DNA of 37,966 nucleotides from the IMG/VR virus record IMGVR_UViG_3300025655_000109, positions 1 to 37,966 of that record; one strand, written 5' to 3'. The position numbers were made by a program, and so were the translations under genes. The notes below the pieces were generated by a model. That model searched no databases and was not told the origin of the DNA. It worked only from the letters and a program-made list of their open reading frames with translations. How positions within the stretch are numbered: the first letter of the stretch is position 1; every line of letters starts with the position of its first letter. Source of the DNA: a virus. Shown piece by piece: positions 22,326 through 34,282 of the stretch.

Positions 22326-24320
22326 CTAAACGCCCGAAAACCCGGCGGCGGTGTTGTCAATAACGCCCGTCTCACCCGGCGGCGGTGACGCATCACTCGT
22401 TAAGACGCGGGGCTCTTGTATGAGCCCTATCGCGTTAGCTTGTGCCATATCCGCATCGACGCTGGTTTTCAGCGCATCAGCTGTCAACTTGCGGATTTCG
22501 GCATTGATCTTGGCGACTTGTGCGCGGCGCTCTTCCAGCGCCAGCGCTTCAAGCTCTGCCTGCATTTGCTGCTGCTCGGGCGACATCTGTTGCCCTTCAA
22601 GCTCCTGGATCAGCTCTTCCTTGTTCCGCAGGCTGCTGGCTTTCAGGTAGACCTTTGGCGGGAACGTCACGGCCGGCGCAAGCTGGACAAGCGCCTGGAA
22701 TTGCTCCTCAGCAACGTTGGCCATATCCGGCACGTGTTCAACTGTGATATCCATGCCCATTTCAGTGGGCTGGTTCTCAACGCGCACCACCATTTGCAGC
22801 TGTTGCGCCATCATCGGGTCAGACGCGGCCTGCTGTAGCTGCTGCTGCACAATCTGCGGATCATTGCCCTCTTCCGTGAGCCGCTTTTCAAGCTCTTCCG
22901 CAAACGTCACTTGCCGGTTGAACCCGACAAACTGGGCCTTCTTTTCATCGTCAGTAACGCGAATCCACCATTCTTCGGTCTTGTACTGCCGAATGAGCGA
23001 CCAGACGCCGTTATAGACCCGCTTCTTAAAGCTGGCGTAGCGGTCATAGATGACACCAATCTCGGTCTGCCCGCCCTGCTGGTTGGCGAGAATCGCCTTG
23101 CCGCTCGGGGCATCGCTGTCCTTGCCCTGCAACGCTGCATTCGGGCCGAAAAGCTCTATTTCGTTCTTGGCTTCCTGCAACATCGCAAGCTCTGCATTCA
23201 GCTGGTCCCCGTTGGGCAGGATTTCAAACGCAAAACCCGGATTCGTTTCTACCCAGCCATCAGGCTTCGCGACTTCCTTGCGCGCCAGATCAACATCGTC
23301 AACCGCGCCTTTTTCCGAACGAACCTGCCGCATGGTGACGCGGTGCAACGCCTTGGCCCGGCGCTTGTTGATCTCATCCTGTACCGAGATCATCTGCCTA
23401 ACGATGCCATAGCGCTCGTTCTTGCGGTTCACGAATGCGCTTTGCAGGTACAGCGGGCAATAGGATTGACCGTCCTGGTCAACGAACGGCACAGGCAGGC
23501 TTTCCAGCTTGCCGCCCTTAGTAAATACGCAGTACCACCACTGATTGCCTTCTAAGTGGTACATTTGGACGATGCGAACACGCTTGCGAGACCCGCCGCT
23601 ACTCCATTTCTTCCACGTCGGGCGATCATCATACGTTCGGCTAAGCTCAGCCTCGTTACCGATTGTCTGGTCAATCAGTTCTGCTTGGTCCGGCCATTTC
23701 GCTTTTGCCTCTTCCGCATCCATCCAGATAACGCCGCCAAGATAGCGCGCGTCCGAAAAATCAAGCTTACGTGAATGCGGATCATAAAACAGACGATCCC
23801 AATCCCAGCCCACGGCTTTGATCTGATCGCCATTCTGGCCTGGCTCGATCACAAGCTCAAGACCGCCGAACCCCTCAATCAGCATGTTCTCCCACGTCGC
23901 GGAAAACAGCTCCTTTAGCTCGGCATCGTCCTCGACGTATCGAATGGCGTCTGTAGCTGCTTCGGATGCTTGCTCATCTTGCGGCGTGCGTGGGAATGCC
24001 CTCGGATCAGTCCGGTTCGTCGCCTCATAGCCGATCAGGTAGTTAATCTTAGGCTGTATGCGGTTGATGATGATGTCAGGCTGTCCGCGTTCACGAAGGA
24101 CCTGCAGCTCCTTATCCGTGAACTGAATATGATCATAGTAGTCACGGTCACGCTCCGAACGCTTGCGCGCGTCCTCTGTTGTCTCTTCCGCATCTTCGAA
24201 CCATTCGACAAGCGTGCTAACAGCCGTCTGGCTGCTGTAGCCCTGCTCATCGTCTGCCTTGTCTAAGCCGTTTTCCACGAGCTCTGATCGCCTTCGCGTC
24301 GTTGATATGCCTGTGCCCAC
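22326..24320 (-). CDS. Portal protein, P22 gp1-like
   Basis: The 664-residue protein is close in size to the P22 portal (about 725 residues) and shows typical segments (RDYYDHIQFTDKELQVLRERGQPDIIINRIQPKINYLIGYE, ENMLIEGFGGLELVIE, YGIVRQMISVQDEINKRRAKAL). The start is GTG at 24320, with no good ATG upstream in frame. The C-terminal part is helical and Gln-rich (the barrel or tail region). It overlaps the terminase gene by 58 bases. Confidence 0.9.
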   Translation of the reverse strand: MGTGISTTRRRSELVENGLDKADDEQGYSSQTAVSTLVEWFEDAEETTEDARKRSERDRDYYDHIQFTDKELQVLRERGQPDIIINRIQPKINYLIGYEATNRTDPRAFPRTPQDEQASEAATDAIRYVEDDAELKELFSATWENMLIEGFGGLELVIEPGQNGDQIKAVGWDWDRLFYDPHSRKLDFSDARYLGGVIWMDAEEAKAKWPDQAELIDQTIGNEAELSRTYDDRPTWKKWSSGGSRKRVRIVQMYHLEGNQWWYCVFTKGGKLESLPVPFVDQDGQSYCPLYLQSAFVNRKNERYGIVRQMISVQDEINKRRAKALHRVTMRQVRSEKGAVDDVDLARKEVAKPDGWVETNPGFAFEILPNGDQLNAELAMLQEAKNEIELFGPNAALQGKDSDAPSGKAILANQQGGQTEIGVIYDRYASFKKRVYNGVWSLIRQYKTEEWWIRVTDDEKKAQFVGFNRQVTFAEELEKRLTEEGNDPQIVQQQLQQAASDPMMAQQLQMVVRVENQPTEMGMDITVEHVPDMANVAEEQFQALVQLAPAVTFPPKVYLKASSLRNKEELIQELEGQQMSPEQQQMQAELEALALEERRAQVAKINAEIRKLTADALKTSVDADMAQANAIGLIQEPRVLTSDASPPPGETGVIDNTAAGFSGV

Positions 24321-25744
24321 TTATCATTGGGCCGTGGTGCAGGTGGCGGGATGCGTCCCGCAACCATCGTATCCAGCATGCGGCCAATCAGGCTCAGCAT
24401 GTCCACCTGATCATCGTGCTTGCCAGCCGGGAAGGACAGCAGCTCAGCCGTCAGATCCGCCACCCACGGCGCGTTATGCGGCAGGTGCACCATGCCCATT
24501 GCGGCGCGTGCCTGGAATGCGCGTCCCCTGGTCGGCTTGTCTGCCACCGATGTCATCTGGTCACGATGACAGTAGATACGCCGTTCCCTCATCCGTTTGT
24601 CGATGAACGGGCCGAGCGACTTGATAATCTGCCCTTGCTCTTCTGCCCATTTCAGTGGCTTGTACTTGCCAACCATGTCGATGAACGTCTCGACCCAGAC
24701 ACTCGACGCCGCTTGAGCCCGCCAGATATCGACGACATAAAGGTTGTCTTTCGGATCCACGCCGACGATGCCGTGCACGGTGTAGTCACCGCCCTTCGCC
24801 GTGACGGCGTAATCCGATGCGCCGTAGTACCGCAGGTTCGGCGGTAGGCGGTCATAGTACCGGAACCATTCCCGCTTGAAATAGTCACCCTCATCTGGCG
24901 TTGGCGTCTGCTGATACAACGCCGACCAGTCCCGCGCCGGAAGTACGCTACGGTATCGCTCGAGCACAGGCAGCGGGTAGAACTCCGGCCACAGCGGTTC
25001 GCCATGCTGATTGATGGCGGCAAGCTGCAGCACGTCCCACTTATCGCCGCCCCGCTCCTGCTCAGTCAGCAACCGGCCTGATAAATCATCCTCATGCCAA
25101 CGCGTCTGAATGACGATGATGCGACCGCCCGGCGCTAGTCGTGTGTAAGCTGTCGACGTGTACCAGTCCCACACTTTGCCTCGCTGCAACTCGCTATCGG
25201 CTTCCTCACGATCTTTCAGCGGATCATCTATAAGCAAGATGTCTGCGCCGCGTCCGGTGATGGCCGTGCCGACACCTGCTGCCACGTAATGACCGCCAGC
25301 CGTTGTGCTCCACCTATTTGCGGCCCGGTTGTCATCTGCAAGCTGGGCACCGAACAGCGCCGCATGCTCCTGGCTATCGAGGATGTTTCTGACCTGCCTG
25401 CCGAAATCGGTTGCCAAGTCGCTGTTATAGCTGGCCGCGATGATCGACTTGCCGGGCTGCTGCCCTAGATACCAAGCCGGGAACCGCCGTGACGCCAACT
25501 CACTCTTGCCGTGGCGAGGCGGCATGTTGATCATGAGGCGGTCTATTTCGCCCCTGGCTACAGCCTCCAGCTTATGTGCAATCAGCTCATGATGTGTGGC
25601 AGCGACGTACTGCGGAAACGTATATTCAGTGTAGCCTATCAGGCTCGCTTTCGCTGTCCTGCGTCTCAGAAGCTCCGTCGCGGCTTGCTGAGGCGATACG
25701 TTCGAGCTCGGCTGTGGTGAGTTCGGGAGCGCTTCGTTTGTCAT
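24263..25744 (-). CDS. Terminase large subunit
   Basis: The 493-residue protein has a Walker A-like PPRHGKS (75-81), a Walker B LLIDDP (170-175), QTRWHEDD (213-220) as coupling motif, and a C-terminal nuclease with acidic residues (GASDYAVTAKGGDYT at about 310-324, GKHDDQVDML near the end). It pumps DNA into the procapsid with ATP and cuts the concatemer. The gene overlaps the small-subunit gene by 119 bases, more than usual. Confidence 0.92.
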   Translation of the reverse strand: MTNEALPNSPQPSSNVSPQQAATELLRRRTAKASLIGYTEYTFPQYVAATHHELIAHKLEAVARGEIDRLMINMPPRHGKSELASRRFPAWYLGQQPGKSIIAASYNSDLATDFGRQVRNILDSQEHAALFGAQLADDNRAANRWSTTAGGHYVAAGVGTAITGRGADILLIDDPLKDREEADSELQRGKVWDWYTSTAYTRLAPGGRIIVIQTRWHEDDLSGRLLTEQERGGDKWDVLQLAAINQHGEPLWPEFYPLPVLERYRSVLPARDWSALYQQTPTPDEGDYFKREWFRYYDRLPPNLRYYGASDYAVTAKGGDYTVHGIVGVDPKDNLYVVDIWRAQAASSVWVETFIDMVGKYKPLKWAEEQGQIIKSLGPFIDKRMRERRIYCHRDQMTSVADKPTRGRAFQARAAMGMVHLPHNAPWVADLTAELLSFPAGKHDDQVDMLSLIGRMLDTMVAGRIPPPAPRPNDKWAQAYQRREGDQSSWKTA

Positions 25745-28521: not shown

Positions 28522-29229
28522 TCAGATGGCGAGCGCTATTTGCTCGGGCTGTGGAGTTGGCGGAGACGCAATGAACAGATCCGGTACGCTTGGCTTTGGA
28601 TATGGCAAATTCAACAAGCCCATTGCTTGGGCTTGCGCTTTTCCTGCCCTGTTTAGCCACTTCCAATACAGGTATTTTCCAGCGTCCATGTGGGGCACAA
28701 CACGTTCGGCGCCCAATCGTTCACCAAGCTTCGTTGGGGAACTCGTTCCCCAACGAGAATTGCACGACCGCCCTGGTATAAACACACCATCCACCAATAA
28801 CCCATCTTGTCGCGGTTCCCGATAATTTGAGAACGCCCAAGATGCTGCTTGATAGATCCCGCCATGGTGGTCTTGTGTGGCGTCAGCAAACGACACGACC
28901 AACGATTGATTGTTTTTCTTCAACATGCGACACGCTAACGACAAAAATGATGTCAGTGGCGCGGTTACGTGCGGCGCCCGAACCAATCGAGACAATTCTA
29001 AAACCGGGTAAGCCCATCGCGTTCCTGGAATCGAAAATGTGCACGCCGCAACCGCTTCCCCGCGATCCCCGAACAACCCGCCGGATTCATGCCATGTGCA
29101 GACGAATTGCACGTTTCCGGCCATCCGCCTTGAATAGTGGTAAGTTTTAATTAGGCGCTCCGCGTCATCCATGTGGCCGACACGAAAATGCAACTTATTG
29201 TCGCCAATCTGATCAACGCGCTGATGCAA
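28522..29229 (-). CDS. mom: Mom-like DNA modification protein (GNAT-related)
   Basis: The 235-residue protein has the Mom pattern: an early TYHYSRRMAGNVQFVCTWHESGGLFGD region, AVAACTFSIPGTRW, ELSRLVRAPH and SLVVSFADATQDHHGGIYQAASWAF. This matches the Mom family related to GNAT acetyltransferases, which in phage Mu converts adenine to a carbamoylmethyl-adenine and protects DNA from restriction. The start is chosen as TTG at 29229 because AAGGA lies eight bases upstream; GTG 29268 (no ribosome site) and ATG 29172 are alternatives. The leader has two hairpins (29325-29368). No intact Com gene is visible. Confidence 0.75.
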   Translation of the reverse strand: MHQRVDQIGDNKLHFRVGHMDDAERLIKTYHYSRRMAGNVQFVCTWHESGGLFGDRGEAVAACTFSIPGTRWAYPVLELSRLVRAPHVTAPLTSFLSLACRMLKKNNQSLVVSFADATQDHHGGIYQAASWAFSNYREPRQDGLLVDGVFIPGRSCNSRWGTSSPTKLGERLGAERVVPHMDAGKYLYWKWLNRAGKAQAQAMGLLNLPYPKPSVPDLFIASPPTPQPEQIALAI

Positions 29230-29324
29230 GATTCCGGTTCCTTCCGGTGCTTGCCGCGACGCGAACACGATTTGCGGTTATGTTGATGTTGCTCAGGTAT
29301 GGCGTAGCGCGTGAGTGATTCGGC

Positions 29325-32488: not shown

Positions 32489-33193
32489 TCACCTCCACTC
32501 GTCGAGAACGGGGACGAGCGGCTTGTCGGGTAGCGGGGCGGTGTAGTGGCCTTCGAGGGTATCCGGCGGCGGCTTGTTGCGCGGGTTGGATTTCACGGCT
32601 GCCGAATACCTGGCATCCTGGTCACGGCGTTGACTGGCTTGGCGAGCGAGTTGACTTTCGACCTGGGCCCGGATCGGGCGGCGGCTGTTCGGCTGGACGG
32701 AGACCTGCAACAAGGCAAGGCTCAGGCGTTCAACGTCCCCTCCGAATTGTTCAAGCCAGAATTGCCGAACGCCGTTGACGAGGGTAACACGGCCGTTCGC
32801 GTCGAGCTCGACACCTTCCGAGTTGTGCGGATCGTCAAAGCCCCCTTGGGGGGTTAGGGGGGAATCTTTCTTAGTAATAACTATCTCCGAAGGAGATTCC
32901 TTATACGCGCGCGCGAGGGGCGCATTCAGTTGCGCGCATTCAGTTGCGTTTGGCGCAACCTGCTGCGCTTTAGGCGCATTGTATTGCGCATGCGCATTCA
33001 GTTGCGCGCATTCAGTTGCGCGTCTGGCGCATTGTATTGCGCGAACCTTGACCCCGATGATGTCCGCTAGTGTTTTGTTGTCGGTGATACCAGAGGCAAT
33101 GAGAACCGCAATAAGCTTCGCCGTAGGCGTGCCTTGTGTATTTCTCGCGAGTTCAACAAGATTTGCCTTGCAGTTGTCACAGTTGTTTGGCAT
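32489..33193 (-). CDS. Replication initiator-like protein with HTH and Cys pair
   Basis: The 234-residue protein starts MPNNCDNCKANLVELAR and has an N-terminal HTH-like region (SGITDNKTLADIIGVKVRAI). A C-terminal segment typical of initiator proteins that precede phage DnaB genes contains VRQFWLEQFGGDVERLSLAL and SVQPNSRRPIRAQVESQL. The middle (about residues 51-92) consists of Ala/Asn/Gln/Cys repeats because the DNA there is a cluster of dyad repeats. This parallels the lambda O gene, whose coding region carries the origin. GAGG lies upstream of ATG 33193. Confidence 0.7.
   Translation of the reverse strand: MPNNCDNCKANLVELARNTQGTPTAKLIAVLIASGITDNKTLADIIGVKVRAIQCARRATECAQLNAHAQYNAPKAQQVAPNATECAQLNAPLARAYKESPSEIVITKKDSPLTPQGGFDDPHNSEGVELDANGRVTLVNGVRQFWLEQFGGDVERLSLALLQVSVQPNSRRPIRAQVESQLARQASQRRDQDARYSAAVKSNPRNKPPPDTLEGHYTAPLPDKPLVPVLDEWR
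32861..33042. other. Predicted replication origin inside initiator gene
   Basis: The dyad cluster (32920-33042) has an AT-richer stretch on its left side (32861-32905: GGAATCT...TTAGTAATAA...AGATTCC), which is bounded by a 7-base inverted repeat (32861-32867 with 32894-32900) and contains ATCTCC-GAA-GGAGAT. In lambda the iterons in gene O are followed by an AT-rich unwinding region in the same way. The assignment rests on this parallel and position. Confidence 0.6.
32920..33042. repeat. Cluster of seven GCGCA-N6-TGCG(C/T) dyads
   Basis: Dyads begin at 32920, 32934, 32953, 32974, 32992, 33006 and 33027. Four share the core TTCAGT, two share TTGTAT and one has ACCTGC; the copy at 32934 ends TGCGT. 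Starts are 14, 19, 21, 18, 14 and 21 bases apart. The set forms two similar halves. Each is a good binding site for a dimeric protein, presumably the initiator encoded by the same gene (inference). Confidence 0.8.
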
Positions 33194-33215: not shown

Positions 33216-33257
33216 AAGCCCCGCTAATGACTTCCCGGTCAGCGGGGCTTTTCTTTT
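33216..33257 (+). terminator. Terminator-like hairpin with U-tract on plus strand
   Basis: AAGCCCCGCT (33216-33225) pairs perfectly with AGCGGGGCTT (33241-33250), followed by TTCTTTT. It has the form of a rho-independent terminator for rightward transcription, but no rightward gene is visible just upstream. On the minus strand it would lie in the leader of the initiator gene, with a weak U-tract. It may stop antisense transcription or shape the leader. Confidence 0.55.
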
Positions 33258-34273: not shown

Positions 34274-34282
34274 TTATCCACA
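34274..34282 (+). promoter_or_regulatory. Consensus DnaA box
   Basis: TTATCCACA is an exact match to the strongest bacterial DnaA box and lies between the divergent early and repressor promoters. Host DnaA could influence the switch or provide a second replication site. It is a single box, so chance cannot be excluded. Confidence 0.55.

Follow-up and report, generated by a model that had tools for sequence, protein, structure and literature searches.

The window analysed here is the whole of IMG/VR virus record IMGVR_UViG_3300025655_000109 (37,966 bp), which comes from an uncultivated phage. From its sequence, and with a probability of roughly 85%, we consider it to contain a phage replication origin which lies inside the initiator gene and is fired via dyads, an AT-rich tract and DnaB. 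A lambda-like origin within an initiator gene had been proposed in a preliminary description and the proposal is now supported by dyads that are conserved at the DNA level with fixed spacing, by the AT-rich tract, by the neighbouring dnaB gene and by the contig L001, in which the N-terminal domain and the repeats have been exchanged as a pair. Multiple palindromic iterons lie within the putative initiator coding sequence, an AT-rich tract lies next to them in the window and in two relatives, L038 and L058, and a helicase gene is found directly downstream in the window and in L038. This layout appears, convincingly, to be of the classical lambda/P22 kind, and neither the initiator family nor the iteron sequence had a match in the collections searched.

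The dyad array and the gene that carries it

The features of the locus are collected in Table 1. The gene directly downstream of the putative initiator gene encodes the DnaB helicase, so that the order initiator then DnaB was borne out. The earlier count of seven 16-base dyads in 123 bp within the gene was also correct, six being perfect copies of GCGCA-N6-TGCGC and the other, dyad 2, having a mismatch at its end. The two core sequences named previously, TTCAGT and TTGTAT, were recovered four times and twice, respectively, but a third core, ACCTGC, which is present once, was missing from that description. The dyads had been said to be unlike known iterons and indeed no match to the iteron sequence was found in anything searched.

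Table 1. Coordinates of the putative origin, the gene containing it and the adjacent helicase gene.
Feature	Position	Strand	Remarks
Putative replication initiator, 234 aa	32489–33193	-	No Pfam, PHROG or NCBIfam family
Layout of putative initiator			HTH-like N-terminal part, residues 1–58; dyad-encoded linker, ~51–97; C-terminal domain, ~104–200
DnaB-type replicative helicase, 466 aa	31085–32485	-	Pfam DnaB_C 1.8e-66; phrog_19 1.8e-87
AT-rich tract, putative DNA-unwinding element	32861–32905		67% AT vs 42% for the window
Inverted repeat ATCTCC-TTC-GGAGAT (gene strand)	32883–32897		Inside AT-rich tract
Array of seven dyads RCGCA-N6-TGCGY (putative iterons)	32920–33042		123 bp, inside ORF 32489–33193(-)
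Dyad 1 GCGCATTCAGTTGCGC	32920–32935		Adjoins AT-rich tract
Dyad 2 GCGCATTCAGTTGCGT	32934–32949		One mismatch, ends in T; 2-bp overlap with dyad 1
Dyad 3 GCGCAACCTGCTGCGC	32953–32968		
Dyad 4 GCGCATTGTATTGCGC	32974–32989		
Dyad 5 GCGCATTCAGTTGCGC	32992–33007		
Dyad 6 GCGCATTCAGTTGCGC	33006–33021		2-bp overlap with dyad 5
Dyad 7 GCGCATTGTATTGCGC	33027–33042		Window only, absent from L038 and L058

The six perfect dyads are the only ones in the 37,966-bp record, and positions 32920–32948 are repeated exactly over 29 nt at 32992–33020. Against the six observed, 5000 dinucleotide shuffles of the gene gave a mean of 0.005 perfect dyads and a maximum of 1, and in 5000 codon resamplings in which the protein was kept the mean was 0.35 and the highest count 4. 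The dyads are read in two codon phases, one yielding AQLNA or AQYNA and the other ATECA, and the repetition is therefore at the level of the DNA and not of the peptide.

The protein itself was difficult to classify. No Pfam, PHROG or NCBIfam match was obtained for the window protein, and neither it nor the L038 and L058 proteins matched HTH_36 or an O-like PHROG. Comparison with HTH_36 initiators using hhalign gave a probability of 45%, the closest solved structure was archaeal transcription factor E (E = 0.11), and an AlphaFold2 model made from the three-sequence alignment had a pLDDT of 38 and was unusable for fold searches. No relative of the initiator or of its parts was found in the phage collection, none of its N-terminal part in the plasmid collection and none in GTDB genomes. 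The gene had been called HTH initiator-like. Given the lack of a family match and the 45% hhalign probability, the assignment of an HTH to the N-terminal part is marginal, and the initiator role is itself inferred.

Several other elements were noted in the window and in related records. A perfect DnaA box, TTATCCACA, occurs at 34274–34282 upstream of the leftward early operon, and L001 also has one at 1890–1898. The gap from the upstream gene to the start of the initiator contains a GC-rich hairpin, AGCCCCGCT...AGCGGGGCT, at 33216–33256, and hairpins are visible by eye at the matching place in L001, L038 and L058. A Mom-like DNA modification gene is located at 28522–29268 (Pfam Mom 1.4e-18). 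A 5-kb IMG/VR contig, L002, encodes a DnaB 100% identical to that of the window over 457 aa; it begins near the start of the DnaB gene and may be a fragment of the window's phage, cut near the repeat array. The cumulative GC-skew minimum was at 34.8 kb, not 32.9 kb, on a curve that may mostly track gene orientation.

Conservation of the array and the AT-rich tract

A pattern scan of IMG/VR viral contigs followed by a cluster count identified L038 and L058, both of which are metagenomic, so that the comparison comprises three arrays only. Their genes align without gaps to the window gene over the first ~100 codons and are divergent beyond; identity to L038 over the first 100 codons was 69–72%. 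Six dyads are found in all three genes at identical gene offsets (172, 186, 204, 225, 244 and 258), the spacing of 14, 19, 21, 18 and 14 in the window being reproduced in both relatives. Over these six dyads in three genes the CGCA/TGCG arm columns were invariant in 48 of 48 cases and the core columns in 15 of 36. Codon identity at identical residues, taken pairwise, was 85, 67 and 83% in the array as opposed to 45, 42 and 58% in the N-terminal part, and in DnaB it was 46%, again below the 67–85% of the array. A search for pairs of 14-bp dyads that overlap returned 25 loci, and L038 and L058 were the only ones with the array.

The previously reported AT-rich tract with an inverted repeat beside the dyads was confirmed. 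No other stretch of the window's putative initiator gene is richer in AT, and in each of the three genes the most AT-rich 36–45 bp start right after the last dyad. The inverted repeat occupies the same position in the relatives, where it reads ATCCC-TAC-GGGAT (L038) and ACTTCC-TAC-GGAAGT (L058), the arms differing between the three genes while pairing is kept. Arms of 5–6 bp at a shared position in three diverged sequences had shuffle frequencies of 0.7–2% each, and the folding energy of the AT-tract hairpin was not significantly more stable than that of shuffles. With three sequences being few, a conserved hairpin in the tract is a lead only.

The neighbouring gene varies as well. The initiator gene is followed by that for DnaB in the window and L038 and by that for an unnamed protein of 183–193 aa in L001 and L058, so that among the four genes compared two have dnaB next to them. 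The unnamed proteins (L001:3202–3783 and L058:12996–13547) share 47% identity and stand in the place of DnaB; they are possibly helicase loaders.

Repeated dyads in the gene of a DNA-binding protein would also fit an autoregulatory or copy-control operator, at which the protein represses its own operon or titrates itself, with the origin located elsewhere. Iteron initiators often both regulate themselves and act in replication. However, the array is mid-gene, ~150 bp into the coding sequence, no promoter-like site was found at it, and it is coupled to the AT-rich tract in the window, L038 and L058. We regard an operator with a separate origin as improbable.

Dyads and domain exchange in other viral contigs

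Open reading frames with paired GCGCA dyads were collected from viral contigs. Twelve of the 81 matched phrog_270, an initiator family, and eight matched small-terminase PHROGs. The control CGCGA-N6-TCGCG, composed of the same letters, gave 53 open reading frames with no initiator or small-terminase family among the 25 commonest families listed. If the control count is taken as none, one-sided Fisher tests give p = 0.002 for the initiator family and p = 0.015 for the small terminases, values which overstate the evidence owing to near-duplicate loci, the listing of the 25 commonest families and the use of one longest open reading frame per locus.

HTH_36/O-like initiators (L016, L035, L075, L085, L090 and others) resemble the window protein in having an N-terminal DNA-binding domain and then GCGCA-N6-TGCGC in the linker, and in L090 the initiator is also followed by DnaB. 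They differ from it in their N-terminal family, in dyad spacing and cores, and in having only 2–6 perfect dyads. The small-terminase genes L018:7343–8398, L081:2801–3811 and L083:11197–12120, the last a small terminase by PHROG match, and their relatives also carry GCGCA-N6-TGCGC in a linker after the N-terminal part; in L018 and L081 the dyads come before the Terminase_2 domain. It may be that pac or cos recognition takes place at these dyads.

It could be argued from these genes that the window gene is itself a small terminase, whose HTH part binds the repeats in its own gene as a packaging (pac/cos) site. The window gene, however, matches no terminase family, neither Terminase_2 nor a small-terminase PHROG, the large terminase gene (24263–25744) is not adjacent but more than 6 kb away, and dnaB is the next gene in the window and L038. 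This gene content speaks against a small terminase with an internal pac site, which is very improbable. Scarcely credible is a flexible Ala/Gln/Asn linker grown by tandem duplication with no function in the DNA, for although the linker is low in complexity and internally duplicated (29 nt exactly), one DNA unit is read in two phases, synonymous conservation is raised in the array, and the palindromic arms are invariant and fixed in spacing while the cores vary.

Further evidence for an origin within the initiator gene comes from L001, a viral contig of 36.6 kb. The C-terminal domain of its initiator matches that of the window with 73% identity over 82 aa, but its N-terminus is a DUF1376 domain, unlike the window. 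The L001 linker has no such dyads and contains four GATACC-type repeats 12 bp apart plus an inverted copy, with an AT-rich tract adjacent after them. Comparison of the two sequences indicates that the N-terminal domain and the repeats were exchanged together and the C-terminal domain was retained. With the sites encoded in the linker that joins these two domains, the recognition domain and its sites would move as one cassette. No DnaB was found in the L001 record and the gene after the initiator is not dnaB. Since L001 shares the C-terminal domain yet has no DnaB in its record, a contact between this domain and DnaB is only a guess.

Proposed mechanism and relation to known origins

What the sequences show is the array, its conservation as DNA with fixed spacing, the AT-rich tract, the gene order and the joint exchange of N-terminal domain and repeats; that the initiator binds, that the tract melts, that helicase is loaded and that the locus acts as an origin is what we infer. 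Each RCGCA-N6-TGCGY dyad is probably recognised by the N-terminal part of the initiator, most likely in the form of a dimer. Once the six conserved sites were occupied, the resulting nucleoprotein complex would strain the AT-rich tract just beyond the array until it melted, and the C-terminal domain may then recruit to the melted strand the DnaB that the phage itself encodes in the next gene. It is possible, though we think it unlikely, that CGCA-N6-TGCG is a recurrent recognition syntax, unrelated phage initiators and small terminases writing their own sites into the linker, and that the AT-tract hairpin aids helicase loading here. The latter is proposed because the arms change in concert between relatives.

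In ori-lambda, the iterons are inverted repeats within the O gene, to which O binds as dimers, opening the AT-rich tract alongside (PMC5043065, PMC7466680), and iteron number varies among lambda relatives, with four in lambda and six in Stx phages (PMC7466680, PMC5043065). The window is similar in that its putative initiator gene has several inverted-repeat iterons at its centre, followed by an AT-rich tract, in matching order relative to transcription; placement in an early operon and a difference in iteron number between relatives are also shared. The iteron sequence and the initiator family are different. Lambda loads the host DnaB via P, whereas the window phage encodes its own DnaB. No lambda P homologue was seen in the window and P22 is therefore closer than lambda in gene order. 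In P22, gene 18 encodes the initiator and gene 12 a DnaB-type helicase, and the window likewise has an initiator gene and then a phage-encoded helicase of this type. The P22 18-12 replication module has been described (PMC3349717). Family searches gave no sequence relationship between P22 and the window.

These results add to phage replication a probable initiator family for which there is no Pfam, PHROG or NCBIfam model, together with its probable origin. The four genomes provide a clear case in which a DNA-recognition domain and its cognate repeats were exchanged jointly. For uncultivated phages, a rule that places dyads in the linker behind the N-terminal domain could serve to predict both origins and pac sites purely from the sequence.
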